39,756 nucleotides of DNA from a virus: positions 1-39,756 of IMG/VR virus record IMGVR_UViG_3300009154_000010; one strand, written 5' to 3'. Positions within the stretch are counted from its first letter, which is position 1; every line of letters begins with the position of its first letter. The position numbers were made by a program, and so were the translations under genes. This document shows, in pieces, positions 4,501 through 37,416 of this stretch. The notes below the pieces were generated by a model. The model saw only the letters and a list, made by a program, of their open reading frames with translations. It did no database searches and had not been told where the DNA came from.

Positions 4501-7500
4501 AATGTGCTCGGTTAAGTGCTGAGCCATGGCTTCTGGGTTAGCCTTAGCAGCATCAAGGCTGTATTGGAAGGTTCCGCCACGAACTGCCACGGCAAGACCG
4601 CCATCAGGAACATCGCCTGTCATAAACTTAAATGTGCCACCATTGTTTTCAATGGTTTGTTGAATCATTTGAATAATTTTAGTTTGGTTACTTGTTACTG
4701 TGCGAGTATTACGAATAGCATCAAGTTGGCGTTTGGCAAGAATCTGTGCTGGTTTATTAGTTCCAGTTTCAACCATTGTTGGGTCAACCAAAACAGTAGC
4801 ACGACCATTAGCCTTAACATCTGGAAGCGTTACTTTGCCAATACCATTGGCACGCATCCAATCAAAGATTTCTTTTTCTTTACCCTTCCAGGAATCTGGT
4901 TTACGGGCATCAAGACCAAGAGCCTTAAGTTCTGGATAATCGTTTAAACCAAGTTTTACTCTTGTGCCATTATTAGTGCGAAGGTCAACATGAGTTCCAA
5001 ATACTTTGGATGAAATAACTTGTCCCTGATTGCCAGGTTTACGAACTCGGAAAGTTCCTTCAACAAGCATCTTTTGTGAAACGCTATCTGGGTCAACAGC
5101 ACGCCATGTTCCAGATTGTGGATTGTAAAGTTCTACTTGGTTACCTTTGGCAACACTGTTACGGAATCCATCTTTCATATCTGCAGCAATAGTTTGCATT
5201 GCAAGTGAAGGTTTGCGTATGCCACCTTCTTTAATAAGAGCGCCAGTTTCTGCGCTGCGAAGGTTCTTTGGCATAGCATAAGCACGACCAGTAGTGCGCT
5301 TGTAAATCTCAGATGCTGAGATTGTTGGCATGCCTTTTTCTGCATAACGCCCAGCAATATCATCTGAATAAGTCATAGCCAATGGGCGATTAGGATTAAA
5401 TCCACGAAGTGCTGTAGGTGAACCATGATACAAATACTCACCACTACGGTATGAGGAAATGTTTAAAAACTCCATGGTTTGTTCTTCTGTAAGTTGACCT
5501 CGTTTAAACGCAAGTTCAACTGCTGCCATGTGGTCATCAATTTCTTGATTTAATTTAGCAATTTGTGCACGCTCTAGTTGAACCTGAGCCATTGCACTAC
5601 GAAGTTTTACTGAATCTTCACGCAAACCTTTAGCAACAAGGCTTCTATCTGTCATACGGTCCATGCCGATTTGACGATGTTCCCACCAGTTTTTAAAACC
5701 ATCTTTGCTTAGGTCTGATGCAGCAACTAAACCGTATCCCTTTGCAAGAATAGACATTGTGGCTTCGCCAACATTTCGCACAGTGTAACCAAGGCGCAAA
5801 AGAACTGATGCTTTCCATGCATCATTAAGTATTCCATAAAGATATTGGTCCCTATCAGGGTCAACAATGCCATGGCTACCTTCAATAGCCTTAATCAAAC
5901 CACTGTTTTCTTTAAGGATACGAGCATAGTTTTCTAAGTCAACCATAGGCAAAGCATTGGCACCTTGGCGTTCAAGATAAGGAATTTTAAGGATGGTGTC
6001 ATCATTGGTCATTAAAAACTTACGGTCTTTAATTGAATCCATTGCTGTTTTACGGCGACCCTTGTATGCGTTCCAAATAAACTTGGCTGTTTCGTCTGAG
6101 ATGCCAAGTCCTTCATGGATTGCAGTTGTTGCAAAATCTTCAAATGACTGCGCTACACGAGTGCGGTTTTCTGGAATATCTCCAGCCCTAAGAAAGTCAT
6201 CATAGTGGCGTTCAATAATTGGAGCAGCCTTTTCGTTACCAACAATACGGCGAAGCATGCCAGCAAATGCTTGCATTTCTTTAAATGAATCTGAATCGTT
6301 AGCATTAAAATAACCAGCAGGGCGTTCTTCTGCCCACTTTTCTGCAAAGTTAATTACCGCTACAACTGGATGATACTTAGTTGGTTGGAAAATACCAAAG
6401 GTTGGATAAGCAGTCATCTCGTCTGCCTTGATACCCATTGCACGAGCGTACTTACGCTCAGCCTGTTGTACTGCTAACTTTTCAAATGCAGATGTACCAA
6501 ATGTACGCTTGCTTAGGTCTGCACCCTTTTCAGTTAACTTAGTTAAGTAATCAAAGTAAGGGTCTTTTGCTAGTTGCGCTACATGTTCTGCTGCTGCATC
6601 AAGCATATTGACATCTTCTGTAATTCCATTGGTTGGAATATTGTTAAGGATGTCCTCATCCATTTTAGATACTGGCTTTAATTTGTCATAAACAAAAGCC
6701 AAATCTTTGCGCTTATCAACAAGACGACCCATTGCTACTGTGTCTTTATTGGAAAGAGCAAGAAGTGTATCTGCTACATCGTCAACAGTTTTTACTTCAC
6801 CAAGAAGCCATGACATAGTTGGGGCATCATTAGATGCTTGAACTGCTGGGTGGTTAATGATTTTAGTTGCATCATTTTTAGCAAACCACTCCATTGTGTT
6901 ATACAAACTACCGTCAGCATTGCGACCTTCGTTAATTTTTGCAGCCAATGTTTCTGGTGAAATAATGGTTGCTTTACGAACGGCATTTGGTTTAAACAAA
7001 AATTCTCTGCCCAAAGAACCAAGAGTTGCATCAGTGCCACCCATTGGGCGAGTAACTAATGCTGCTTTGGCTAAGCCTAGTCCTTTACCAACCTTACCTA
7101 GTGGGTCAGTTACTGTTGTAAAAAATGTGTCATAGGCACCAGATAAAGTTTTATAGCGCCAATTTGTGTCAAAAATTTCACGGTCTTTAGGGTCAAAAAT
7201 ATTAAAGTTGCCATGCAATTCAGTGGCAGTTGGGTCTAGGCTTGATTGCAAATATGCAATAGATTGCCCAATAGAAATGTCGCTACGCTGATTCCATGCT
7301 TCTTGAAAATTACCAGTGGCAATACCAGTTGCTAAAGCAGACACTGGTTGACGAGCATATTTGCCACCAACATCGTAAATAAAACGAGAAGCAGGAAGCA
7401 ATACATCATTAAATGTTGCGCCTAAAGCCTTGCGTGGTAGGTAAGTAGTGCCAGCAAGAGAAGCCTTAAATGTATCTCCTGCTAATTGGAAAGCATCACC

Positions 7501-7626
7501 CATCCATGATTTGTCATTGGTTGCAACAGATGCAACATCATGTAACAATATTGGTAATCCAATTTCATTACCAAAGTTTGATATTTGCTTTCCAGCCCAA
7601 TTACCTAAATTATTTACAAATGTCAT
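1543..7626 (-). CDS. Giant internal virion protein, 2027 aa, with a possible ADP-ribosyltransferase-like segment
   Basis: This is the largest gene of the genome and takes up 15 percent of it. It starts at the ATG at 7626, overlapping the previous stop as TAATG. Most of the protein is not recognisable. Around residues 731-766 it reads YLYHGSPTALRGFNP followed by SDDIAGRYAEKG. This resembles the first strand and following helix of phage ADP-ribosyltransferase domains (a Y-H-G-S/T motif, then D-x-A-x-x-YA). A later stretch with WVAPAEDGSMHIWADP and a Gln-Ala helix resembles accessory domains seen in giant phage head or ejection proteins. Its position after portal and before scaffold fits a protein injected into the host with the DNA. 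The catalytic Glu of the transferase was not located, so that part is tentative. Confidence 0.8.
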   Translation of the reverse strand: MTFVNNLGNWAGKQISNFGNEIGLPILLHDVASVATNDKSWMGDAFQLAGDTFKASLAGTTYLPRKALGATFNDVLLPASRFIYDVGGKYARQPVSALATGIATGNFQEAWNQRSDISIGQSIAYLQSSLDPTATELHGNFNIFDPKDREIFDTNWRYKTLSGAYDTFFTTVTDPLGKVGKGLGLAKAALVTRPMGGTDATLGSLGREFLFKPNAVRKATIISPETLAAKINEGRNADGSLYNTMEWFAKNDATKIINHPAVQASNDAPTMSWLLGEVKTVDDVADTLLALSNKDTVAMGRLVDKRKDLAFVYDKLKPVSKMDEDILNNIPTNGITEDVNMLDAAAEHVAQLAKDPYFDYLTKLTEKGADLSKRTFGTSAFEKLAVQQAERKYARAMGIKADEMTAYPTFGIFQPTKYHPVVAVINFAEKWAEERPAGYFNANDSDSFKEMQAFAGMLRRIVGNEKAAPIIERHYDDFLRAGDIPENRTRVAQSFEDFATTAIHEGLGISDETAKFIWNAYKGRRKTAMDSIKDRKFLMTNDDTILKIPYLERQGANALPMVDLENYARILKENSGLIKAIEGSHGIVDPDRDQYLYGILNDAWKASVLLRLGYTVRNVGEATMSILAKGYGLVAASDLSKDGFKNWWEHRQIGMDRMTDRSLVAKGLREDSVKLRSAMAQVQLERAQIAKLNQEIDDHMAAVELAFKRGQLTEEQTMEFLNISSYRSGEYLYHGSPTALRGFNPNRPLAMTYSDDIAGRYAEKGMPTISASEIYKRTTGRAYAMPKNLRSAETGALIKEGGIRKPSLAMQTIAADMKDGFRNSVAKGNQVELYNPQSGTWRAVDPDSVSQKMLVEGTFRVRKPGNQGQVISSKVFGTHVDLRTNNGTRVKLGLNDYPELKALGLDARKPDSWKGKEKEIFDWMRANGIGKVTLPDVKANGRATVLVDPTMVETGTNKPAQILAKRQLDAIRNTRTVTSNQTKIIQMIQQTIENNGGTFKFMTGDVPDGGLAVAVRGGTFQYSLDAAKANPEAMAQHLTEHIENTVDKFAQADHFGFWVAPAEDGSMHIWADPVNVIKDKAQAIKLGKERNQQGIADLDAYARGEDGFISTGGTGDEGASAGFALGQGTKAFRSDVTRGTQGVRPELSQPNRAASLNDLANHLGSGKYPTDGITSLIRDLADRDAIARAKHEKMLVKLDARVAEENRLTTSKKLVGTGMRKAKLYDGTVIEYPDAFHGELGQILAQRTDNADTYKLLADSPSQLFAARYGNMNEVRLSTKDPRYFTGYANFLNNFFRSPTENKIDPIIEQFLNGKTPESVIKWLRSPEGKTYASKMNIDDQAFKVASENLNVGTSAEDFVGNLHSAYQRYLPDSSIQEAFRNKQVNEIWLREHFKDNPTMPDIIGSVVPVGPKISGWQDGTQAVVNKLFYFLGSLPETTLARHPLARAVYRSEMQQRANIALSLKRSQIGDANAELTVDEINGLRKDAIESTRKEVNKTLFTIMRKSYAGEKMRYIMPFFSAWENTVRRWATLSSDNPVAVAKAGQITASLSNQNNVVDSNGNPTNKFSYDNVIVLPMPESFMQTMEKIPGASGLAAAIRSAGSQISIPIRSMDVMFQGEATAGFGPIVAIPAGELEKMRPDLESILKPIIPFGPQEGNLLQATAKSILPPAAQKAAETWSATRDGQWSRTFNTVYRYELIKYRLGDRNTEPTFEEVSNLTNNMYRVKMFSNLILPFAAQYDSPLNWYTQQYRKLQQTYKGDADALFLQMYPEMAEATISASLNNTGVNASQQANANIQKYKPLISKIGATSPEMIGFIVNDPSGKYDFSQAAYQWQMSNSPVPGSTENFRGQRNPALLKQEANKKMGWIDYRKAIDYLDTQLAAQGYDQYTQRGAEDLLLAKQMFTTQLAKSNPDWAADFYSVDKGKWIYRMQTIKTILTDPQWLKDNGSRPVVTQIAIYYSTRTQIARELASRKAEGSAGSLDAKDNEDLKQLWDNTIAALRHESGGEFDGFYQRFLQNDPVTLG

Positions 7627-8087
7627 TAAAGAACGCTCCGCAAATAACGAACATAAGTGCGGAAGGCGTTAGAAGCGGAAGGAGATTCTGCAAGAAGTGA
7701 AAGCGTTGGCAATGCTGTAAGCATGCGCTTACGGTCCTCAGTTGCAAGAGTCTGGTCATTTGCATACATAACTTCGCTACCAGCACCAGGACCTGTATCA
7801 ACACCAGTAGTAACTGGCTCATCAGGGCGTTGTGTTGGTGCATCTAACGGAACAATTTGCTGTCCGACTGGTGCTGTTTGTGGGCGACCCATTGAAGGAG
7901 TTGCTGCAAAAGTTGGAGAAGCGTTCATTGGAGCAGATGTCTGTAGTTCTTGCATGGCTTGATTTTCGCCATAAGCCCCACCAGTCATTGCTTGCGCTGC
8001 TTGTGTTCCGCCATTACCACTGCCACCTGTTGCTGAAACAGAATAGTTATTCTGCGGTGCAGTTGGGCGATTGCCTCCTGATGCCAT
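7626..8087 (-). CDS. Low-complexity virion-associated protein, 153 aa
   Basis: The N-terminal two thirds is rich in Gly, Ala, Asn, Pro and Gln (SATGGSGNGG and APTQRPDEPVTTG, for example) and is probably disordered. The C-terminal 40 residues look helical (EDRKRMLTALPTLSLLAESPS). The frame also has an ATG at 8093. I chose 8087 because AAAGGAG lies at a better distance from it. It sits between a small basic protein gene and the 2027-aa gene, and its stop overlaps the next ATG. Similar disordered proteins occur next to portal genes in actinophage-like genomes. Function unknown. Confidence 0.75.
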   Translation of the reverse strand: MASGGNRPTAPQNNYSVSATGGSGNGGTQAAQAMTGGAYGENQAMQELQTSAPMNASPTFAATPSMGRPQTAPVGQQIVPLDAPTQRPDEPVTTGVDTGPGAGSEVMYANDQTLATEDRKRMLTALPTLSLLAESPSASNAFRTYVRYLRSVL

Positions 8088-8127
8088 GTGCATCTCCTTT
8101 CCAATTAAGGTCAGTATTTAAAAGTAG

Positions 8128-8150
8128 TGAGCAGTTTTTAAACTTACTCA
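8128..8150 (-). promoter_or_regulatory. Late intergenic hairpin, copy 1
   Basis: On the minus strand an arm TGAGTA is separated by 11 bases from TGCTCA, an imperfect 6-bp inverted repeat. It lies in a short gap upstream of the gene starting at 8087. A closely related element with perfect arms is at 28164-28186. Both share CCTGAG and a run close to TTAAAACTGCTCA. It could be a late promoter element, an intra-operon attenuator or a processing site. Confidence 0.5.
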
Positions 8151-8160
8151 GGTTTAATAC

Positions 8161-8352
8161 TTACTTTGAGCCTCTTGTGCCCTTAGGTGCCTTTGTTAAC
8201 ATTGTTGTTGATGCGCTAGGCTTTGAAGCCTTAGGCATACCAGCGTTTGTAGGCTGTTGAACATTTGCCTTTCCAGCGCCACCCTGATTAGCAGGCTTTG
8301 ATGCTTTGCCAGGTTGGTTGTTTGGATACTTTGCTGTGCTTGTGTTTGCCAT
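8161..8352 (-). CDS. Small basic low-complexity protein, 63 aa
   Basis: The protein is rich in Lys, Ala, Pro, Gly, Asn and Thr (KASKPANQGGAGKANVQQP, for example), strongly basic and without hydrophobic segments. A very strong ribosome-binding site (GGGGGGAGGG) precedes the ATG at 8352. It sits between the portal gene and a disordered-protein gene, so it may be a head-internal or DNA-binding peptide. No family recognised. Confidence 0.7.
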   Translation of the reverse strand: MANTSTAKYPNNQPGKASKPANQGGAGKANVQQPTNAGMPKASKPSASTTMLTKAPKGTRGSK

Positions 8353-8368
8353 GGTTACCCTCCCCCCT

Positions 8369-10183
8369 TTAGATAGGTTGTCGCCGTGCGACTGTTGCTT
8401 GTAGGTTTGCTTCGCCTCGGTTGTTTAAACCAGCGAGAAGTGAAGAAACATCTGGGCGACCACCTGGAGCAATTTGTCCAGGAGCAATACCCTGCATACG
8501 ACCAGTTTCGCCTAAGCCCATTGGAAGTTGCCCGCCACCTGCTGCGCTCTCACTTGGCATGCCCATAGATTCGGGACTTACTGAGCCTGGGGCTGCAGCA
8601 GGTGCGGGATTCTGCGGTTGGAACGCCTCTTGGATTGCTATTTCAATAGCAGTTCCTTTTTGGCGAGCACTGATTACATACGAAAGTTTGCGTAGGATGT
8701 CGGATGGGTCTTGTCCTTGACTTGCAAGGGCTGGAATTGCCTGTGCGTATGAAGCAATCGCTTGTTTCATAGCATCACGCAGTTCTTCTGTTTCAACCTT
8801 TTCTTCTTCTTGTGTTGCATTAAAGGAGAAAGGCATTTGACGGCGTAGGAAGTCACGAGAAATCAACTTGTCACCTCGTGCTTGTAGTCCAAAGACCAGT
8901 GCACGGTTAGGGTCAAGTCCTGCCATCAAGCCATACTGCACATCAACGGTGTAATCACCATCAATGTCACGGGCTGGCTTGTATTTAATGTTGTAAGGGG
9001 TGCCATTGTAAACACCTTTTAGTTCTTTTTCCATTTTGCCAAAGATTTTTTCATCTACTCGTAGCGCTAACGCTAACAATTCTGTAAATGTACGGGCAAA
9101 CATTGCATGTGCTGTCTTGATTTGTGTATCAAAACCACCCATAAGAGCCTTAACACCCTGACCAGTAATGATTGAAGCATCAATATTACCTGTTCGGGCA
9201 TCTGGAAAACGGCTACCTAGACGGAGTTCTTGCTCAAGAACCTGTGACTGTGCGAACACATTGCTAGGAAGTTCAAGTGGGACTCGGCGAATCTCATTAG
9301 GCTTACTGGAGCGCATAATTGCATCAGGTCCAAGGGCTAACTCCTGACTATCCAAAGGCATCGCAATCGGTGCCTGAACTGATTTAGTTGCTGCTTCAAG
9401 GGAAAGTAACGCATAGCGTGCTTTAGCAACTTGAATAGCAAGTACATCATCAAACTGACCACGAGATTGGTCGTCTAATGAAGGTCGTTGTACAACACGA
9501 ATTAAGCACTCACCCATTGGGTTAGGTGCACGGTCTAATACAAGATTGTTTTTCTGTGGCATGAATAGAACATCTTGGTCCTTATCATGAAAACGAACAA
9601 TCTCAGATACTGTTGTTGTGTTGTTCTTGTCGTAAATTAAATGTGCTACTTCTGGATACTTAGCCATTAGTTCTTCTGTTGGCTTCATCATGCGCTGGAA
9701 GAACATAGTTACACGACCATAGCGGTCAATAACTGGGTAACTTCCTAGTGCATCAAAGAACTTAATGCGAGGCATGTTCTCGTCAATATCAATTTCAACC
9801 TGTGCAGGTACAAATCCGTAGGTTACATAACGGTCTGCAGCATTAAACATTTGTGATTGTAGGTCTGAAAAGTTAACAATACCGTTGACAATTTCGCCAC
9901 GCTTATCAGCCTTCTTACGGGCTGCCTCTGAAACCATAGATGTAGAAGTACATCCAAATGACGGTAGAGGTGCAATAACTTCTGCAATGTCACGAGCAGC
10001 AATATCCACCATATTAGCCACGATAGGATTCTCAAAAGGACCATCGGGAAAAAGGTCTGGGTAAACATCACGCATCTTGCCTTGACGAACTTGGAGAACC
10101 TGATTCATGCGTTGGTCGCGGTCATCGTACATACGGCGGTATCTGTCGTAGTAGTTCTTAATCTCATCTATGGAAAGTGCCAT
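8369..10183 (-). CDS. Portal protein, 604 aa
   Basis: The portal forms the dodecameric ring at one head vertex through which DNA is packaged and ejected. The call rests on position directly after the terminase gene, a typical size of about 600 aa, and portal-like sequence. The N-terminal region starts IDEIKNYYDRYRRMYDDR, the middle is a mixed alpha/beta body, and the C-terminal tail is Pro/Gly/Gln-rich. The start at 10183 has GGAGGTGAAC just upstream; an in-frame GTG at 10189 is less likely. The terminase stop is only 14 bp upstream. The C-terminal low complexity may face the capsid interior. Confidence 0.88.
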   Translation of the reverse strand: MALSIDEIKNYYDRYRRMYDDRDQRMNQVLQVRQGKMRDVYPDLFPDGPFENPIVANMVDIAARDIAEVIAPLPSFGCTSTSMVSEAARKKADKRGEIVNGIVNFSDLQSQMFNAADRYVTYGFVPAQVEIDIDENMPRIKFFDALGSYPVIDRYGRVTMFFQRMMKPTEELMAKYPEVAHLIYDKNNTTTVSEIVRFHDKDQDVLFMPQKNNLVLDRAPNPMGECLIRVVQRPSLDDQSRGQFDDVLAIQVAKARYALLSLEAATKSVQAPIAMPLDSQELALGPDAIMRSSKPNEIRRVPLELPSNVFAQSQVLEQELRLGSRFPDARTGNIDASIITGQGVKALMGGFDTQIKTAHAMFARTFTELLALALRVDEKIFGKMEKELKGVYNGTPYNIKYKPARDIDGDYTVDVQYGLMAGLDPNRALVFGLQARGDKLISRDFLRRQMPFSFNATQEEEKVETEELRDAMKQAIASYAQAIPALASQGQDPSDILRKLSYVISARQKGTAIEIAIQEAFQPQNPAPAAAPGSVSPESMGMPSESAAGGGQLPMGLGETGRMQGIAPGQIAPGGRPDVSSLLAGLNNRGEANLQATVARRQPI

Positions 10184-10197
10184 GTTCACCTCCTATC

Positions 10198-12956: not shown

Positions 12957-13484
12957 ATGAGAAATCGTGAACAATGGCTTGCAGCGTTTGCTACTGCTGC
13001 TCGCCGACCAATCGCATCATCAATCCAAGGTGGAGGTGACGAGGAGGCAGCAATCCGCCTATCTTGTGGCTTCCCTCCAAAAGTGGGTCGCAAGGCTTCC
13101 ACTGCTGCAATCGTGCCACCAACCGCATCTCAGGACTTCACTGCCGAGATTTTCGTGGCTCCTACCGTTGACTCATCATCCGAGGTTGCCAAGGCAATCC
13201 TCCCACTGCTCCGCATCGCTCAATCAGGCAACTGGCGCTCAGCAGCGCCAAGCGTTGCCAAGCCACTGGACACGCTCCCAGTGTGGGCTGAATCAATCAT
13301 CCTCACACTCGGCGAGTATCCACACGCCAAAATTGAAATTGCGCCAGCAATCAAGCAAACAACTCGCCTCATCAAGGTTGCGTGTTTAAACGACAACTAC
13401 ATCGCACGAGTATCTCGCTCAACTCTTGAGAATCTCGGCGCTCCAATCTGCCCAGCATGCAATCAATCACTCGTGGAGGCTTAA
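12957..13484 (+). CDS. SprT-like family protein lacking the HExxH metalloprotease motif, 175 aa
   Basis: The order IRLSCGFP (residues 33-40), TAEIFVAPTVDSSSEVAKAIL (62-82), a LGEYPHAKIE segment (118-127) and a C-terminal Zn-ribbon-like end match a family of putative phage metallopeptidases. Its members read RVSCGWPS, EIFISP, VLxHELVHAAVG, LGxYPHA and CPECGYIAR. Here the HELVH position reads ILPLLRIAQSG, so the zinc-protease motif is gone. The ribbon keeps Cys143, Cys165 and Cys168 but has lost the fourth cysteine (CLNDNYIAR). The start at 12957 follows GGAAAGG; GTTTAAAC fills the spacer between that site and the ATG. It is the first gene of the early operon. It is probably non-catalytic, perhaps a binding or regulatory relic. 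Confidence 0.7.
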   Translation: MRNREQWLAAFATAARRPIASSIQGGGDEEAAIRLSCGFPPKVGRKASTAAIVPPTASQDFTAEIFVAPTVDSSSEVAKAILPLLRIAQSGNWRSAAPSVAKPLDTLPVWAESIILTLGEYPHAKIEIAPAIKQTTRLIKVACLNDNYIARVSRSTLENLGAPICPACNQSLVEA

Positions 13485-13486
13485 TC

Positions 13487-14230
13487 ATGACTACTTTCGG
13501 ACTAGAGTTTGAGGTCGCTGGACTCTCAACATCAGCAGCATCAGCAGCGCTCAATCGTGGCGGAATCGCTTGCGAGGAGCCACGCAATCAGCACATCGTC
13601 AACGAGAAGTGGACATCGGTCTATGACGGCTCAGTTCGTGGAGCCGAGGTCGTGTCACCAATCCTTGACCCAATCCGTTTAAACGAGGCTTCAACCGTTG
13701 CTCGCTTGCTCCTCGGAGCAGGTGGCAAGGTTGACCGCACAACTGGCTTCCATGTCCACATCGGAGCAGCAGAATTGACCCACGAGCACATCGCCCAGTG
13801 GTACATCAACTGGAATCTGCACCATGATGCAATCGGTGTGCTCGTTGCGCCAAGCCGTTTAAACAACCGTTTCTGCTCAGCGCTTGACCAAGCAGCAACC
13901 AATCGCAACGCCGAAAGAATCCGCAACGGCAACATCTCGGACTTCAACGGTGACCGCTACCACTCTTTCAATCTCCAATCCTTCCAACGCCATGGCACGC
14001 TGGAAATCCGCCTACATCAAGGCACACTTAACGGAGCAAAAGCCGTTGCGTGGGCAAAGTTCATTGATGCGTTTAAACAACTCAGCGAGAGCCGAATCAT
14101 CGGTGACCTCGGCACTGGCACCAACCTCCAAAAGTGCGAGAATCTCCTAGACCTGCTCCGCATCAACGGAAATCTTGACGAGCGCACCGCCAACTATCTC
14201 AAAGACCGAGCAGCATCCCTCAACGGATAG
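13487..14230 (+). CDS. Amidoligase family enzyme (glutamine synthetase-like fold), 247 aa
   Basis: Amidoligases of this class use ATP to join a carboxylate to an amine, forming an amide or peptide-like bond. Visible family features are GLEFEV at residues 5-10, DGS at 47-49, EVVSP at 54-58, GFHVHIG at 87-93 and TLEIRLHQGTL at 171-181. Together these give the acidic and His residues expected of the metal/ATP site of the GS fold. GGAGG precedes the ATG at 13487, two bases after the previous stop. A stand-alone glutamine amidotransferase follows 400 bp downstream and could supply ammonia or a glutamyl group. The substrate is unknown. Three GTTTAAAC copies lie within the gene. Confidence 0.8.
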   Translation: MTTFGLEFEVAGLSTSAASAALNRGGIACEEPRNQHIVNEKWTSVYDGSVRGAEVVSPILDPIRLNEASTVARLLLGAGGKVDRTTGFHVHIGAAELTHEHIAQWYINWNLHHDAIGVLVAPSRLNNRFCSALDQAATNRNAERIRNGNISDFNGDRYHSFNLQSFQRHGTLEIRLHQGTLNGAKAVAWAKFIDAFKQLSESRIIGDLGTGTNLQKCENLLDLLRINGNLDERTANYLKDRAASLNG

Positions 14231-14644: not shown

Positions 14645-15451
14645 ATGTGTGGAATCGCAGGCTTCTGCCTTAACCCAAAGCACAACAACAATCAGGTTGA
14701 CCTTGCATCGCAGATGCTCATGGACATTGAACATCGTGGCTATCACGCCACAGGTGCAGCATGGATTAACCCAAAGACTGGGCATCGTGTAATCACCAAA
14801 GCGCCAGTGGCTGCAACCAAGTTCATCACGACAGATGCAGGCAAGCGAATCTGTTTAAACGCACAGACCGCTATCTTGCACACTCGTTGGGCAACTCAAG
14901 GTGACCCAAAGGTTAACGACAACAACCACCCAATCCCTCGTGGCAAGATTGTGTTGACACACAACGGACACATCAGCAACGATGACCAACTGTTTAAACA
15001 ACTCAAGGTCAAGCGCCATGGTCAGGTAGATAGCGAGGCAGTCGCAGCACTGATTGCATTTACATCAGCGCCCATTGCCGAGGTGCTCTCTCGTGTACAA
15101 GGCACTGCTGCCTTGGCTTGGATTGAACAGAACAAGGGCAACACATTGCACCTTGCTCGTATTAACTCATCGCCATTGTGGATTGGTCAGACCAAGACAG
15201 GCTCGCTCGTCTATGGTTCAACCGAGGACACCATTGAGAACGCATCTATCATGCTTGATTCAGTGCTTGACTGGGCATACGCAGCAGCCGAGGGTGAATA
15301 CTTCAAGGTTAAAGACGGCAAGATTGTGGAGCATCAGAACTTCACACCGTTTAAACAAGTGTATGCCAACAACTGGCGCAAGTATTCTTCTAGTAACTGG
15401 GATGATGAGCACGAGTACGCATCTAGTTATTACGACAAGCACCTGTTCTAA
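14645..15451 (+). CDS. Stand-alone class II glutamine amidotransferase, 268 aa
   Basis: Class II glutaminase domains release ammonia from glutamine with an N-terminal cysteine. The protein begins MCGIAGF, so Cys2 becomes the nucleophile after Met removal. HRGYHATG at 30-37, LHTRWATQGD and THNGHISND match the glutamine-binding and oxyanion motifs (compare HRGxDxxG, RWAT and HNG in GlmS/PurF-type enzymes). No synthetase, isomerase or transferase domain follows, so it probably works with a partner. The amidoligase upstream in the same operon is the obvious candidate. GGAGAAATAAATT precedes the start, and a strong terminator lies 40 bp after the stop. Confidence 0.85.
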   Translation: MCGIAGFCLNPKHNNNQVDLASQMLMDIEHRGYHATGAAWINPKTGHRVITKAPVAATKFITTDAGKRICLNAQTAILHTRWATQGDPKVNDNNHPIPRGKIVLTHNGHISNDDQLFKQLKVKRHGQVDSEAVAALIAFTSAPIAEVLSRVQGTAALAWIEQNKGNTLHLARINSSPLWIGQTKTGSLVYGSTEDTIENASIMLDSVLDWAYAAAEGEYFKVKDGKIVEHQNFTPFKQVYANNWRKYSSSNWDDEHEYASSYYDKHLF

Positions 15452-16974: not shown

Positions 16975-17404
16975 ACGCATCCACCCGCATGCCCGACTGT
17001 GGATGGCAACAACTCTTGTACTCGGAATCTTTCTCGTGTTTAATCCACGAGTGCAGATGGTTGCACATCCACCGCAAGGTACTCTCATTGCTTACTATCA
17101 CAACGACTACCAACGCTTCGCAGTGGAGCAACTAATCAAGCAAGATAAGATTGAACAGTACCCATGCCTCTATGAATTGTGGATGCGTGAGTCAAACTGG
17201 CGACCACAATCACACAACAATCGTGGTGGCGCACATGGAATCGCACAACTCAAACCTGAAACATGGAAACTTATCGGCATACATCAAACCGATGATGGAT
17301 ATACACAGGTAATTGCTGGGCTACGCTACATAGACAGGCACTACGGCAAGACTGGTGGTATCTGCAAGGCATACGCTCATCACTTAGCAGTGGGGTGGTA
17401 TTAA
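16967..17404 (+). CDS. Membrane-anchored lysozyme/transglycosylase-like protein, 145 aa
   Basis: Residues 11-25 (LWMATTLVLGIFLVF) form a signal anchor after a basic start (MFKRIHPHAR). The rest matches the lytic-transglycosylase/Rpf-like fold: LWMRESNW with probable catalytic Glu75, AHGIAQLKPETW at 89-100, GLRYIDRHYG at 118-127 and a VGWY end. The start at 16967 was chosen for its signal sequence; an upstream in-frame ATG at 16883 lies inside the previous gene. Peptidoglycan cleavage at the outer face of the membrane is predicted. Its place in an early operon, away from the lysis genes, suggests wall remodelling or superinfection control rather than final lysis. Confidence 0.75.
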   Translation: MFKRIHPHARLWMATTLVLGIFLVFNPRVQMVAHPPQGTLIAYYHNDYQRFAVEQLIKQDKIEQYPCLYELWMRESNWRPQSHNNRGGAHGIAQLKPETWKLIGIHQTDDGYTQVIAGLRYIDRHYGKTGGICKAYAHHLAVGWY

Positions 17405-17748
17405 TGGAAATTAAACACCACAAAGTTATAGAAAAGCGAGAGGTTCGCAACCGAGGTAAGGATGTGCAAGCGTTTAAACTACGGTGGAATCGTAGGCTTA
17501 CCGAGGAGGCTGCATGTAAGGGGTTAGATGTTGAATTGTTTTACCCTGACAAAGACATCTTTACCCCCGATGAGGAAAAGGTATTCGCTCGCATGTGTGT
17601 GGAGTGTCCAGTCATGGAGATGTGCCTAGAGTGGGGGCTAGTCCATGAACGCAGTGGCGTATGGGGTGGAACTACCCCATTTCGTAGGCACGCAGCAAGA
17701 AAAGCCCTCAACTTGCAGGTGTCTGACCCACGAGGCATGAACATGTGA
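17404..17748 (+). CDS. whiB: WhiB-family iron-sulfur transcription regulator, 114 aa
   Basis: WhiB proteins bind a 4Fe-4S cluster and the main sigma factor and occur in Actinobacteria and their phages. The four cysteines are Cys38, then Cys65-x2-Cys68-x5-Cys74 (CVECPVMEMC), followed by the turn GVWGG at 85-89 and a basic segment (FRRHAARK). The ATG at 17404 overlaps the previous stop as TAATG; a GTG three codons upstream is less likely. It ends the rightward early operon. It probably redirects host transcription and is the best single indicator of an actinobacterial host. Confidence 0.92.
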   Translation: MEIKHHKVIEKREVRNRGKDVQAFKLRWNRRLTEEAACKGLDVELFYPDKDIFTPDEEKVFARMCVECPVMEMCLEWGLVHERSGVWGGTTPFRRHAARKALNLQVSDPRGMNM

Positions 17749-32342: not shown

Positions 32343-33260
32343 CTATCTCTGGTAGTGTGAACGAATTGGGAATTGACGGCGTTGGTTCTCCGCCACTTCG
32401 TTTAAACGAGTGTTGTAAACATTGAACAAGAAGCGTGCTGCGTTTTCACCACTTCGTGCTCCACGCTGATTGTCAAGAACATCTGCTTCTGCAGATAGTG
32501 CACCCAAGCGTGATGGGTCAAGAAAGGAAATCATACGGAAGGCAGCGCCATAAACAACTACATCTTCTGAGTAATCAGGCATGCCAGTTACTGTTGAGTA
32601 TTCTTGGCTTGTTGCTGTTGTTAAATCAAATATAGTTGGGCGTTGTGAGTAAGCCACATTGACGGTACGCCCTGGCACTACTGCTGAGTAGATACCCAAT
32701 GAGTGTCCAAAGTTTGTGCCATCGCCAAAGGCTGTTGGGTTTGCTGTTCTATCTAACTGCCAAGCACGAACTGGTAGCCACTCTTTGGTTGGTCCAATAA
32801 CTTGGTGTGATACTGCAAGAATATTTTGTACGGCATCTGGAATATCGTAAGTTGTGCGAGCAGCAATAAAAGAGAATTGATACTGACCAACGGCAAAGAC
32901 TGATGGATACATTGCATTGATAGTGTCATTGATAGCACGCTTAATCTCATAGCGTGGGAATAGTGGGGCAACCAATACTTTGGCTGAGTTGCTATGTGTA
33001 GCAGCAACTGTGCCACGCTGCCCACGACCCCAAGGTGCGATGGTTAGGGTGTTATCAATGTTGTTTGTTGAATTGACATACATAATTTCATCATCAATTT
33101 GAATAAAGCCACGGCTTACAACATTAGCATCATTAACTGAAATGCTTGTAGTTGTTGTGCTTGTTACAGCAGCAGTTAGCCATGTAGTTGATTCCATGTT
33201 TAAACTGTATCCATGCAATAGTGTATCTACACGGTCAGTAATCTGTTCAAGAGTAGCCAT
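32343..33260 (-). CDS. Virion protein, probable neck/adaptor, 305 aa
   Basis: IQIDDEIMYVNSTNNIDNTLTI with RGQRGTVAATH resembles a small N-terminal beta domain found in several phage connector and fibre proteins. RYEIKRAINDTINAMYPSVF begins a helical region like podoviral tail adaptors. The C-terminus has a helix with ARSGENAARFLFNVYNTRLNEV. Position between coat-region genes and fibres fits a head-tail adaptor. Not recognised with certainty. Confidence 0.6.
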   Translation of the reverse strand: MATLEQITDRVDTLLHGYSLNMESTTWLTAAVTSTTTTSISVNDANVVSRGFIQIDDEIMYVNSTNNIDNTLTIAPWGRGQRGTVAATHSNSAKVLVAPLFPRYEIKRAINDTINAMYPSVFAVGQYQFSFIAARTTYDIPDAVQNILAVSHQVIGPTKEWLPVRAWQLDRTANPTAFGDGTNFGHSLGIYSAVVPGRTVNVAYSQRPTIFDLTTATSQEYSTVTGMPDYSEDVVVYGAAFRMISFLDPSRLGALSAEADVLDNQRGARSGENAARFLFNVYNTRLNEVAENQRRQFPIRSHYQR

Positions 33261-33537: not shown

Positions 33538-33699
33538 TTACTTGCCTTTCTTCTGTGCTGCTCTCATGTTGTCCACAAGATTAGGATATTTTCTGCTAGC
33601 CTTTTTAGCAGCAGCCTTGGCTGATGCTTTAGCAGCAGGTGAAAGAGGTGTAGATTTTTTATTAGGATTTGGTTTATCCCATACTTCTTTTTTAGCCAT
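33538..33699 (-). CDS. Small basic protein with YPNLVDNM motif, 53 aa
   Basis: The frame begins MAKKEVWDKPNPNKK, then SPAAKASAKAAAKKASRKYPNL, VDNMRAAQ and a KKGK end. The WDKPNP and YPNLVDNM motifs recur in small basic proteins of many phages and large DNA viruses. It is strongly basic and probably binds nucleic acid. Its last codons also contain AAAGG, which serves as ribosome-binding site for the next gene. Confidence 0.7.
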   Translation of the reverse strand: MAKKEVWDKPNPNKKSTPLSPAAKASAKAAAKKASRKYPNLVDNMRAAQKKGK

Positions 33700-33956
33700 T
33701 ACCATTTAACCTTATCTGCCCAATACGCTGCGCTCATTTTGCCTTTGGCAATGTTTGCTGCATGGCGAGCCTTAAATGATTTTTGTCTTGCCGTTGGCGT
33801 ATGGTCGCCAGTAACACCCTGTTGACCAAAGCGAATAGTTTTAACCTGGTCACCAGATTTTGCTACAACTACATGTGATTTTGTTGGGTGGCTAGGTGTA
33901 CGCTTAGGCTTATTAAAACCTGACACTCCTGCTCGCTTTAGTCTTGGGTCTGTCAT
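33699..33956 (-). CDS. Small basic conserved phage protein, 85 aa
   Basis: Motifs include GVSGFNKPKRTPSHPTKSH, VKTIRFGQQGV, KSFKARHAANIAKGKMS and AYWADKVKW. These mark a family of small lysine-rich proteins found in many phages and in giant viruses. Function is unknown; composition suggests nucleic-acid binding, possibly inside the capsid. Start and stop overlap or abut the adjacent genes. Confidence 0.75.
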   Translation of the reverse strand: MTDPRLKRAGVSGFNKPKRTPSHPTKSHVVVAKSGDQVKTIRFGQQGVTGDHTPTARQKSFKARHAANIAKGKMSAAYWADKVKW

Positions 33957-34136
33957 TTACTTGCCTTTCTTGGCTGGCAATACTTTCTTTAGATTTGGAT
34001 TTGCTTTCTTAGCAGCAGGGCTTGCCTTGCGTGCTCCCGCAGCAAGAATCGCTCCCGCATTTTTCATTGGGATTCCTTGCTTCTTTGCAATCGCAGACTG
34101 TGCTGCTGCAAAGCCCATCCCTTTCTTGGCTGCCAT
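33957..34136 (-). CDS. Small Lys/Ala-rich protein, 59 aa
   Basis: The frame reads MAAKKGMGFAAAQSAIAKKQG, then GAILAAGARKASPAAKKANP and LKKVLPAKKGK. It is very basic and Ala-rich, like histone H1-type or DNA-condensing peptides. The start overlaps the previous stop as TAATG. It ends KKGK like two neighbours; the codons also supply AAAGG before the next ATG. Confidence 0.65.
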   Translation of the reverse strand: MAAKKGMGFAAAQSAIAKKQGIPMKNAGAILAAGARKASPAAKKANPNLKKVLPAKKGK

Positions 34137-34258
34137 TACTTTTCACCAAGAGTAGTCGGATTATTGACCGCAGGGGCAGGGATGCCGTAAGGGTTAATTG
34201 TTCCATAATTGTCATCTGCGTTGACGGTGTTAGTCCCACATCCACATGTTGTACACAT
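34136..34258 (-). CDS. Small Cys-rich protein, 40 aa
   Basis: The protein begins MCTTCGCGTNTVNADDNYG and then has a Pro-rich tail (INPYGIPAPAVNNP). The CxxCxC start could bind a metal. It is coupled on both sides (TAATG downstream; AAGGG of the upstream gene before its ATG). No family is recognised. Confidence 0.6.
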   Translation of the reverse strand: MCTTCGCGTNTVNADDNYGTINPYGIPAPAVNNPTTLGEK

Positions 34259-34260
34259 AA

Positions 34261-34428
34261 TTACTTGCCCTTCTTTTTCATAAGCATTGACATGCCTACT
34301 TTAGTTTCTCTAGACTTTTCAGCCTTTGATTCTCCAGTTTTCTTTTCTTTTGCCTTAATAGCCTTAGGCTCTTTCTTTTCGTACGCTGCGTACGCTGCTG
34401 CCTTTGACGGCTTTTTTGCTGCTGCCAT
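34261..34428 (-). CDS. Small Lys/Ala/Glu-rich protein, 55 aa
   Basis: The frame reads MAAAKKPSKAAAYAAYEKKE, continues with alternating Lys and Glu, and ends GMSMLMKKKGK. GGGGAAACACAA precedes the ATG at 34428. Its first 65 nt overlap the end of the protease-like gene in another frame; both readings are Lys/Ser/Ala-rich there. It is probably a disordered or helical DNA-binding or capsid-internal peptide. Confidence 0.6.
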   Translation of the reverse strand: MAAAKKPSKAAAYAAYEKKEPKAIKAKEKKTGESKAEKSRETKVGMSMLMKKKGK

Positions 34429-34987
34429 TTGTGTTTCCCCTTTGTGTGATTACTTTGACATCTCCACCAACACTTATGCAGTAATCGGCAGAAATCTTGA
34501 TTGCTCTGCGAGCAGCAAACTCTGCTGCTTTCATAGAGTTCTTACTGAACCCAGTGGCTAGTGCACCTAGTGCAAGTGAGCCACCGCTACCTACGGCATA
34601 CAATCCACGGTCATCTTTAGACCAGAGGTAGTCTTGGTCTATTTCATAAATGATTCCGTTTAAACAAATAAGAGCATCAAATCCTGCTTCTTTATCTGCC
34701 GTGTCTGGCGTATAGCCATTGTCTTTCATTGCTTCACGCAGGGAAGGTAATACTTTTGTTTGCATGAATACATCTGTTGGTGTTGTCTTAATAACCTTGG
34801 GTGGTATCCAAAGAAAGTTTGCTATGTTGCCAGCAATGGCATCGCCTGAGAAGGCAAATACATAATCACCCTTGCGTACTACCTTGTCAATACTTTTTGT
34901 ATAGTAAGGCTTGTCATCATAGGTAGTCATGGAATCTGCTGCTATTACCGCCCAGCCTTTTCCCTGAATACCTACGATGGCAGTCAT
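34364..34987 (-). CDS. Proteasome beta/HslV-like Ntn-hydrolase protease, 207 aa
   Basis: The protein begins MTAIVGIQGKGWAVIAADSM. With Met removed, Thr1 is the nucleophile, Asp17 lies in AADS, and the Lys33-equivalent lies in SIDKVV (one position shifted). FAFSGD, LYAVGSGGSLALGAL and KISADYCISVGGDV match the HslV/proteasome strands (compare AGFAGG, AIGSGG and IAGDICIYT). All catalytic positions seem present. The C-terminus has a basic 25-residue tail. It lies two genes after the coat gene, where head maturation proteases often sit. Assembly as a ring, and its substrates, are unknown. Confidence 0.85.
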   Translation of the reverse strand: MTAIVGIQGKGWAVIAADSMTTYDDKPYYTKSIDKVVRKGDYVFAFSGDAIAGNIANFLWIPPKVIKTTPTDVFMQTKVLPSLREAMKDNGYTPDTADKEAGFDALICLNGIIYEIDQDYLWSKDDRGLYAVGSGGSLALGALATGFSKNSMKAAEFAARRAIKISADYCISVGGDVKVITQRGNTNGSSKKAVKGSSVRSVRKERA

Positions 34988-34989
34988 GA

Positions 34990-35427
34990 TTACCCCTTAA
35001 AACTATTAGTGTTTGCATCGTAGGCTTTGCCCACTTTGTTTGAATCATCTATTGCTTTTTGAACCTGCTTGGTAGAAGTACCTGCTGGTTGTATGCCTTG
35101 TTCACGAGCAGATTTGTAGAGTTTTAACTCTGCATCCCACTTCTTTCCTGACATAGCCTTATTGCCTGCTGCATCTCCTGGGGATAATTGGAGAGTGCGA
35201 GCCTTGCAACCAAAGCATGAGCAAAACTCTGAATCAATATGGTCTGGGTTTTCTTTTGTTGTGCCCCAGTCTGACCATGGTTCTGGTGAGGTGGCATCGC
35301 ACTTAGTGCAGCCAAACAACTCAACTTTAAAAATCATTTGACCATCTATTAGGTCATAACCTTCTTTTACTATCTTGCCAATGTGTCCATCAACTGAGCA
35401 ATTATATTGCTGTGATGTAGTCACCAT
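34990..35427 (-). CDS. Zn-binding actinophage-type protein, 145 aa
   Basis: Cys/His positions (FGCTKC, ENPDHID, CSCFGCKARTLQ) suggest one or two zinc sites. KKWDAELKLYKSAREQGIQPAG is a helical segment typical of a conserved family in phages of Actinobacteria. The start at 35427 follows GGGGGAACTT; longer frames upstream overlap the neighbour more. It lies directly before the protease-like gene. Function is unknown. Confidence 0.7.
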   Translation of the reverse strand: MVTTSQQYNCSVDGHIGKIVKEGYDLIDGQMIFKVELFGCTKCDATSPEPWSDWGTTKENPDHIDSEFCSCFGCKARTLQLSPGDAAGNKAMSGKKWDAELKLYKSAREQGIQPAGTSTKQVQKAIDDSNKVGKAYDANTNSFKG

Positions 35428-35674
35428 AAGTTCCCCCAATAGAAGCATCTGTTAGACGAGTCTTAGTTGCTTCGTCAATAACATATTGATGTCCACCCAT
35501 ATAAACCTCTTGGGCTTGTAATGTTTCTGTCTGTGAAGGGAAGCGATATGAGGAGTAAGTTCCGTCAATCATCATTACTGTCACGCCACGGTGAATTGAG
35601 TAGCGGGCAAAGAGGCGGTGCCAACCTGCAGGTGTTTCTGCAACTGATGGTGTTGTGAATAAATACTGTGCCAT
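35402..35674 (-). CDS. Hypothetical virion-region protein, 90 aa
   Basis: Contains GWHRLFARYSIHRGVTVMM, a YRFPSQTETLQAQEVYMGGH segment and DASIGGTYGDYI. Similar small beta-rich proteins lie after coat genes in many actinophages. AAGGAGGAACA precedes the ATG, a strong ribosome-binding site. It may be a head-completion or decoration protein; no direct evidence. Confidence 0.68.
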   Translation of the reverse strand: MAQYLFTTPSVAETPAGWHRLFARYSIHRGVTVMMIDGTYSSYRFPSQTETLQAQEVYMGGHQYVIDEATKTRLTDASIGGTYGDYITAI

Positions 35675-35735: not shown

Positions 35736-36917
35736 CTATGCCTGGATTGAAGAAGAAGATTCAATACGGTACATAGCAGCCTCACGGTAACGAGCGAAGC
35801 CAAGTACGCCGTACCAACCGATTGGTCGGAAACGAAGCAAACGGTCAGTAACTGGTCCGATTACAACATTTGGCTCTTGTGCTACTGCCTCAGCAAGTGC
35901 TTGCTTACCAGCAACGATTGTGCGGTAAACAGCAGTTAATGGTGTAACTGTTACTACTGTTGTTGCAGATACTGCACCTGTGTTGGCTGTATCTACAGTG
36001 ATTGTGGTTGTTGAACCTGATGTAACCAAAGATGAAATCTTTGCACCAGTTGCAATACCTGTACCTGAAATCTTATCTCCTGCTTCTGCAGAAGTAGCGA
36101 TAACAGATGAAGAAGCAACACCAAAGGTGTAGCCTGATGAAGTACCTGCGACTGTTACTGCAGTTGTAGCAAGTGCTGACTGGTCAGCGCCATCTACACC
36201 ACGGTACATACGAGGAGTTTCAATGAACATTGCACCTTCGTAGGTTCCAATGTTTCCAGCCCAGAACTGTCCCTGACCTGTTTCTGCATACTTGTGCATG
36301 TCCATCCAGCCACCAGCACCAGTTTCAGCACGAAGGTCGTGTGAGATTTCTGGGTGGATACCTGTCCAGTAAAGGCTTCCCTCACGAGGAACAGCCTTGT
36401 TAGCACGAAGTTTTGCAACTGCTCTACGGATGTTAGCAGCAGTGATTGTGTCAGTTGCTGTAACTGTAGCAGTTGAAGTACGAGCGGTTGAAGATGCTGA
36501 GTAAATAACATTTGTTCCGCCACGCAATGTTTCCATAGCCAACTTATCTAGTGAGTCTGCCATGTTGTAAGCGATGATGTCTGCAACTGCAGGGTCAACA
36601 TCTGATAGTGAGAATAGTTGCAACTTACGAGTTACAAGTGAAGCATTACCGTATTCGGCAAGTGTCACTGAAACTGTTGTTACATCTGATAGTGCTACTG
36701 CATCTGGGTCAGTTGTTTCTGACGATAGAGCAGAAGTAACTGCTGCCAAGTCATTGTAAATTGAGAATACAACGCTTGAACCTGGCATCGCTTGCTGAGC
36801 AGGGCGCTTGTCAGCCACTGAACGAATCAGTGGTTGTGAACGAAGCGCGAACTCTACATAGCGGTCATAAGCAGTTTTGATTAACCCCGCAAGAGCGGTG
36901 GTATCTGTATATGCCAT
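35736..36917 (-). CDS. Major capsid protein with C-terminal insertion domain, 393 aa
   Basis: The N-terminal part (residues 1-135) resembles N4 gp56/P22-type coats: RSQPLIRSVADKR, MPGSSVVFSIYNDL, SVTLAEYGNASLVTRKLQ and NMADSLDKLAME. Residues about 242-328 are a Thr/Ser/Val/Gly-rich beta segment (TSSGYTFGVASSS, STTTITVDTANTG) absent from simple coats. The conserved end follows (AVYRTIVAGKQALAEAV, then RPIGWYGVLGFARY). The insertion is probably a surface domain. It is preceded by the scaffold gene and followed by a hairpin. Confidence 0.88.
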   Translation of the reverse strand: MAYTDTTALAGLIKTAYDRYVEFALRSQPLIRSVADKRPAQQAMPGSSVVFSIYNDLAAVTSALSSETTDPDAVALSDVTTVSVTLAEYGNASLVTRKLQLFSLSDVDPAVADIIAYNMADSLDKLAMETLRGGTNVIYSASSTARTSTATVTATDTITAANIRRAVAKLRANKAVPREGSLYWTGIHPEISHDLRAETGAGGWMDMHKYAETGQGQFWAGNIGTYEGAMFIETPRMYRGVDGADQSALATTAVTVAGTSSGYTFGVASSSVIATSAEAGDKISGTGIATGAKISSLVTSGSTTTITVDTANTGAVSATTVVTVTPLTAVYRTIVAGKQALAEAVAQEPNVVIGPVTDRLLRFRPIGWYGVLGFARYREAAMYRIESSSSIQA

Positions 36918-36948: not shown

Positions 36949-37416
36949 TTATTGAACTGAAACACCGAGTAATGCACTGAGTTCTGCAGCACTTTTAGCG
37001 CCTAATATCTTTGACATTGAATCTTCATCTACTCCTGGAGGAGTACCTGTTGATACGACATCATTGATGCGCTTCTGTGCTTGTAGTGCAGGGTTCTGAG
37101 CCTGGCTCTCGCCTTTATTTGACTCTTGCTGAACACCAAAGACATCGCCATATTCATTGAGCCATGTTGCCACGGCTTCCTCAGTAACATCAATGTCCTG
37201 TGGAATAAACGCTGCGACCTTTGGGTTGATACCCTTTGCTGTCAGTACATCCTTTACGGTGCGCTGACGAGTTTGATTCTTTAGAGTTGTTGCTTCTGCT
37301 TCAATTTCTTTCAAACGCTTTTCAAGCGTGCGATTTACTTTACGCAGTTGCTTAACGACATCCTGAGGCTCATTGTCCTCATCAAAGAAGTCATCTTCAT
37401 CATAATTGGTAGCCAT
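36949..37416 (-). CDS. Scaffolding protein, 155 aa
   Basis: An acidic start (YDEDDFFDEDNEPQD), a coiled coil at residues 19-50 (QLRKVNRTLEKRLKEIEAE), then a helical domain (VLTAKGINPKVAAFIPQDID) and a C-terminal helix. Size, composition and position directly upstream of the coat gene are typical of phage scaffolds, which guide procapsid assembly and are then lost or degraded. The protease-like protein encoded 2 kb downstream is a possible processing enzyme. Confidence 0.85.
   Translation of the reverse strand: MATNYDEDDFFDEDNEPQDVVKQLRKVNRTLEKRLKEIEAEATTLKNQTRQRTVKDVLTAKGINPKVAAFIPQDIDVTEEAVATWLNEYGDVFGVQQESNKGESQAQNPALQAQKRINDVVSTGTPPGVDEDSMSKILGAKSAAELSALLGVSVQ

Follow-up and report, generated by a model that had tools for sequence, protein, structure and literature searches.

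A proteasome-fold peptidase in the structural operon of freshwater actinophages and its alternation with a small unrelated protein

The peptidase gene, its active site and its place among the head genes

The window, by which we mean the whole 39.8-kb virus record analysed here, carries a WhiB gene and, on its minus strand, an ATG-started ORF of 207 amino acids placed by ORF calling at 34364-34987. This gene lies downstream of the scaffold and coat genes, as the preliminary description had stated, and on the same strand. The features to which the argument refers are the following.

36949-37416, minus strand: scaffold, weakly DUF4355 / Gp46-like (phrog_7813)
35736-36917, minus strand: major capsid protein (coat; phrog_1357, PF13252), without a long N-terminal propeptide-like region
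34990-35448, minus strand: u152, of unknown function (phrog_10483), left border of slot 1
33957-34987, minus strand: slot 1, between u152 and u85, holding the peptidase or s83 in relatives, then small Lys-rich/Cys-rich ORFs
34364-34987, minus strand: proteasome/HslV-fold Ntn peptidase, 207 aa, catalytic core at residues 1-185
34261-34428, minus strand: Lys/Ala-rich ORF of 55 aa with a KKKGK terminus, in a different frame from the peptidase gene, whose 3' end it overlaps
33699-33956, minus strand: u85, which bounds slot 1 on the right (phrog_7595, weak DUF5754); its identity within the group is about 90%
32343-33260, minus strand: head-tail adaptor-like protein (SU10_adaptor, just under the cut-off)
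17395-17748, plus strand: WhiB-like regulator, a marker of actinobacterial phages
8369-10189, minus strand: portal protein; other members of the group have slot 2 on its 3' side
8094-8368, minus strand: slot 2 of this phage, with neither peptidase nor s83 and only a low-complexity ORF of about 60 aa
7626-8093, minus strand: protein of 155 aa (phrog_8200) that bounds slot 2 on the right and is homologous to u147 of the Planktophila phages

The product of 34364-34987 is a protein of the proteasome/HslV (Ntn-hydrolase) fold, as had been proposed from a first reading. The family match is well above chance, since a profile search assigns the protein to phrog_1040 ('peptidase HslV family') with an E value of 5.8e-24 and it scores 30.7 bits against PF00227 (Proteasome), for which the cut-off is 22.4. 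The closest PDB sequence is that of the bacterial proteasome homolog BPH (E 3.7e-4). An AlphaFold model computed from 21 relatives, with a moderate pLDDT of 73, presents the β-sheet sandwich with the flanking H1-H4. The structure prediction and fold search suggested at the outset returned the Ntn fold: Foldseek retrieved BPH, HslV, Anbu and 20S subunits with this model (E 4e-9 to BPH), and VIA-align superposed it on BPH with a Z score of 17.6 and an rmsd of 3.0 over 175 residues, Anbu and the 20S β chains being tied. The same fold is common to many phage proteins. The last 20 or so residues do not belong to the enzyme, because they overlap the Lys-rich ORF in the other frame and their length differs among relatives; among 87 distinct slot-1 peptidases, about one third or more have the counterpart of this ORF joined in frame to their C-terminus. 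It is the first of several short ORFs rich in Lys and Ala, with KKGK at their ends, that come after the peptidase gene (34261-34428 and 33540-34136, minus strand).

When the initial Met is not counted, Thr1, Asp17, Lys34, Gly47 and the GSGG motif are all there, and Lys34 aligns to the proteasome Lys33, a one-residue loop insertion accounting for the shift. All 81 close relatives start with MTAIV and keep the Thr, the Asp, the Lys and the GSGG. Among 204 full-length, distinct relatives belonging to both sites described below (one further ORF is truncated), T1, D17, K33 and the oxyanion glycine G47 never change, and in GSGG the Ser may give way to Thr, Gly or Ala. The Thr1 following the Met, the Asp17, the Lys33 equivalent and the SGG turn noticed earlier are confirmed; the 'late Asp' listed with them does not hold as a family feature, being an Asp in just 71 of the aligned rows. 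Divergent peptidases (L166, L191, L197 and L218) have GAGG or GGGG instead of GSGG and an intact catalytic triad. The median pairwise dN/dS is 0.12, versus 0.16 for the coat gene, and the peptidase gene is under purifying selection as strong as that acting on the coat gene. The invariance of the active site indicates that catalysis matters, and the intact site most likely predicts a catalytically competent peptidase. It need not mean general proteolysis, since BPH is inert on standard peptides and casein (PMC5777263).

The host of the phage is likely a freshwater actinobacterium: a WhiB gene is found in 32 of the 35 long records of the phage group; the coat and the terminase are about 50-53% identical to those of Streptomyces phages, e.g. 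Immanuel3; and the coat is 67% identical to that of OX376640.1 and OX376641.1, the Planktophila phages LanE43AprE7 and F5, the first phages of 'Ca. Nanopelagicales' to be brought into culture (PMC10202952). The claim that no ATPase partner is encoded holds within the window, where no AAA+ unfoldase is found and the single Walker-A ORF of more than 100 aa is a RecA/DnaB-like ATPase. Together with the fact that Table 1 of Fuchs et al. 2021 (PMC8665760) lists no HslV for Actinobacteria, this makes a cognate HslU unlikely. Scans of bacterial and archaeal genomes found no genome with the peptidase gene.

In freshwater actinophages, the peptidase gene is found at either of two sites in the structural operon, namely behind the coat gene, as in the window, or immediately behind that of the portal. 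In the case of slot 1, 80 of 80 close loci retrieved with the peptidase protein as the query show, within the reach of each contig, the order scaffold, coat, u90, u152, peptidase, (u85), u91, adaptor. In the case of slot 2, the portal gene of the Planktophila phage E7 ends at 7482 and its peptidase gene follows at 7500-8036; loci retrieved with the E7 peptidase have it in this slot, as judged by the neighbour, in 79 cases out of 80, and the last one is a fragment with no portal in view. Both OX376640.1 and OX376641.1 were deposited without gene annotation, and their peptidase is easily overlooked. More distant phage homologues lie away from the head genes, in nucleotide-metabolism or early-type regions.

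Two other features deserve mention. An ORF of 40-60 aa starting with MCxxCxCxGT/GS and carrying a PYG motif, perhaps a small metal-binding protein, is present in the slot of both peptidase and s83 phages (34136-34258, minus strand, in the window; 8325 in L166, 7264 in L178 and 3475 in L189). A protein of 2027 aa (1543-7626, minus strand), which has no Pfam match, is encoded where related phages have the gene of their large internal virion protein.

Alternation of the peptidase with s83

When relatives are retrieved with the coat protein as the query and the peptidase is disregarded, about half of them have no peptidase, and in all but one of these (L203) a small protein, s83, is encoded instead between u152 and u85. 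This coat-driven survey gave 37 loci with the peptidase, 34 with s83 and 9 with neither, eight of the latter being fragments that do not extend across the slot; L203, a 10.8-kb fragment, is the sole apparently empty slot of the set. A search with s83 revealed its second home directly behind the portal, in 43 loci. A portal-driven survey, blind to both genes, returned 65 loci with the peptidase, 10 with s83 and 5 that are cut off, so that 75 of 75 complete loci are filled. The 492 pooled loci, which are partly overlapping metagenome contigs of ungraded completeness, comprise 364 with the peptidase, 113 with s83, none with both and 15 with neither, mostly short fragments. Searched over their whole length, 39 of 40 records contain exactly one of the two genes and L203 contains neither. 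The record studied here agrees, with the peptidase in slot 1 and neither gene in slot 2. The two genes were found together in none of the loci and long records surveyed.

The s83 protein has about 83 residues, with a basic tail, a helical core (L..Y.I.LNEYY..L..AGF....SYP.W) and an acidic tail, and its AlphaFold model, computed from an alignment of 29 rows, consists of three short helices with loose tails. Comparison with PHROGs, Pfam, PDB sequences and PDB folds gave nothing credible, and a search of 50,697 phage records returned no s83. The possibility that s83 and the peptidase are homologous was considered and rejected (hhalign probability 0.2%). The Streptomyces phages related by their coat (about 53%) seemingly have neither gene; the function is therefore not universal, even among close kin.

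The exchange of one gene for the other has occurred repeatedly. On the coat tree, the state of slot 1 switches 7 times, at least 4 of these switches being forced by well-supported branches; on the portal tree, that of slot 2 switches 6 times, with at least 5 forced by supported branches. The exchange is seen most cleanly in pairs of phages that differ in little but the slot: L182, which has s83, and L177/L166, which have the peptidase, share 97.4% identity in the coat, 96% in the scaffold and about 90% in the flanking DNA, and differ by a segment of about 330 bp versus about 590 bp, respectively. Similarly, L443 (s83) and L441 (peptidase) have portals that are 97.6% identical and flanks that are 94% and 91% identical. 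The N-termini of the coat proteins are alike with and without the peptidase.

The idea that the peptidase is simply dispensable was dropped once s83 had been seen in nearly every relative that lacks it. Since s83 phages with a near-identical coat and scaffold exist, the peptidase itself appears not to be indispensable for the assembly of this head; since almost every slot is filled, one or the other product is apparently required.

Across 21 long records, the peptidase/s83 state is followed by no other genuine gene family, and a second 'peptidase-linked' ORF family proved to run antisense to the portal gene. In roughly half of the slot-2 loci, another small protein, u84 (about 84 aa, acidic, of no known family), is encoded directly behind the peptidase (e.g. 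L086 8033-8287, L366 6534-6788 and L424 6543-6785); it was not observed next to s83. It was exchanged along with the peptidase in the L441/L443 swap and is a possible partner. An Amidoligase_2 gene and a class-II glutamine amidotransferase, which is also an Ntn hydrolase, lie near each other in the window (13457-14230 and 14645-15451, plus strand). A link of the amidoligase and glutamine amidotransferase to the peptidase through a Pup-like tagging was discarded, the amidoligase being present in about half of 35 records whatever the state of the slot.

Possible roles of the pair

The model that we put forward, tentatively and with somewhat less than even confidence, is that of an ATP-independent proteasome/HslV-fold peptidase, produced from the late structural operon and serving one late step of infection that s83 also serves. 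The most likely prediction for the enzyme itself is that it is ATP-independent and acts late in infection. The clipping of the Met would expose Thr1, and the subunits would form a ring as in BPH or HslV. This ring would degrade an unfolded or disordered protein that otherwise hinders late infection or the assembly of the particle, the candidate substrates being a host factor or, among phage proteins, the scaffold and the Lys-rich proteins of the head. The s83 protein would reach the same end with no protease of its own, either by binding the target or by handing it to a host protease. That the two proteins do the same job is suggested, in a correlative way, by their mutual exclusion: either one or the other is found in the same place, and never both. 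The balance tips slightly towards a substrate from phage assembly, given that neither gene leaves the head operon and that one of the sites is right behind the portal; a host target is nearly as likely. The narrower proposal, in which the late step is carried out by two interchangeable means, the phage's own proteasome-like peptidase or an s83 that delivers the same substrate to a host protease, is an unlikely one in our estimation; if true, it would define a proteolysis step of the head operon that exists in interchangeable versions.

A doubtful but substantial alternative is that the action is directed against the host. The peptidase would cleave or remove a host defence, stress or regulatory factor, possibly after injection with the DNA, s83 would neutralise the same factor by binding, and the swaps would reflect an arms race with host variants. 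The fast reciprocal replacement at a fixed site in DNA that is about 90% identical is indeed typical of host-range or counter-defence genes, the distant phage homologues are found in non-structural regions, and a target confined to freshwater hosts would account for the apparent absence of both genes from the Streptomyces phages. However, counter-defence sites usually hold many different genes, whereas the surveys made with neither gene as the query showed two alternatives only and almost no empty slot, and both sites are in the head operon.

The preliminary description had also raised the possibility of a head maturation protease, and we consider it improbable that the enzyme is a true prohead protease cleaving the coat or the scaffold. 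The part of this proposal that stands is the location in the head module: the gene is placed behind the coat or, in other phages, behind the portal, which is the usual place of a prohead protease, its catalytic residues are invariant, and the proteins scanned include no other recognisable prohead protease. An obligatory role is argued against, since phages with a 97% identical coat and a 96% identical scaffold, all of them with s83, manage without the peptidase. Moreover, the two groups do not differ in their coat N-termini, which show no long propeptide-like stretch, and s83 matches no known family or fold.

Neutral cargo at a recombination hot spot, with selection on neither gene, would account for the precise replacement between conserved flanks; it is very improbable in view of the dN/dS value, of the absence of a third occupant and of any empty slot in the complete portal-driven loci, and of a coat-driven set in which the one apparently empty slot is in a fragment, so that the present surveys count against it. 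Least probable of all is a structural or decoy role devoid of catalysis, in which the ring would be a part of the virion or a poison of the host proteasome: the place in the head operon would suit it, and a structural role could be shared with a small protein like s83, but catalytic residues that never vary in 204 proteins across both sites are not required for a non-enzymatic role and, together with the purifying selection, disfavour the simple decoy envisaged earlier.

The late step shared by the peptidase and s83, which remains our preferred reading, would, if true, assign a function to a viral proteasome-like protease for the first time and point to an unknown step of protein turnover in the phages of a bacterial group that ranks among the most abundant in freshwater. 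The presence in two sites of the structural operon and the repeated trade with one unrelated small protein lead to a specific hypothesis of shared function. Furthermore, the swaps constitute a natural set of near-isogenic pairs, and cultivated phages with a known host carry the peptidase gene (PMC10202952).

Comparison with known systems

The phage gene family is already known, as PHROG 1040 and from the work of Fuchs et al. 2021 (PMC8665760), and the novelty lies in the context and in the stand-in s83, not in the fold. The peptidase is a member of phrog_1040 by profile, but the library gives only a name and the category 'other', with no link to head genes and no alternation. The closest solved relative, BPH (e.g. 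that of Thiobacillus denitrificans, 5ovs/5ovt), resembles the peptidase in having neither a propeptide nor an AAA+ partner (PMC5777263); it is about 21% identical to it, forms a tetradecameric double ring and is the product of a bacterial housekeeping gene, whereas the peptidase belongs to a phage structural operon. HslV (ClpQ) shares the fold, the Met-Thr start, the Thr1/Asp17/Lys33 set and the GSGG. However, the peptidase is not HslV proper: it scores 27.7 and 26.3 bits against the HslV equivalogs of NCBIfam, for which 137 and 157.75 bits are needed, and HslV has its HslU partner, which is missing from the window. In the case of the 20S β subunit (PrcB), the peptidase has no match to the bacterial equivalog at E<=1, and it starts with Met-Thr, whereas PrcB is made with an N-terminal propeptide.

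The phage-borne proteasome homologues PPH and AAH, described by Fuchs, Alva and Lupas (PMC8665760), are, like the peptidase, compact group-I type proteins of tailed phages. They have so far been orphan genes, for which neither a gene context suggesting a function nor an AAA+ partner was found. The peptidase is not a PPH, since PPH has about 140 aa and no helix H2, whereas the peptidase is longer, with a core of 185 residues in which the model places H2 at 71-89. AAH was named for α-proteobacteria and Actinobacteria and was not found in actinobacterial phages, nor did it have a telling context; here, the gene is found in actinobacterial phages and in a strict context. Homologues of the peptidase were found on Rhizobium and Streptomyces plasmids, and in a tree built with the homologues from phage DSL-LC01, from other phages and from these plasmids the peptidases form their own clade beside them. 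Finally, the cultivated Planktophila phages LanE43AprE7 and F5 (OX376640.1 and OX376641.1; PMC10202952) possess a homologous peptidase, which in E7 is encoded in slot 2, whereas that of the window is encoded in slot 1.
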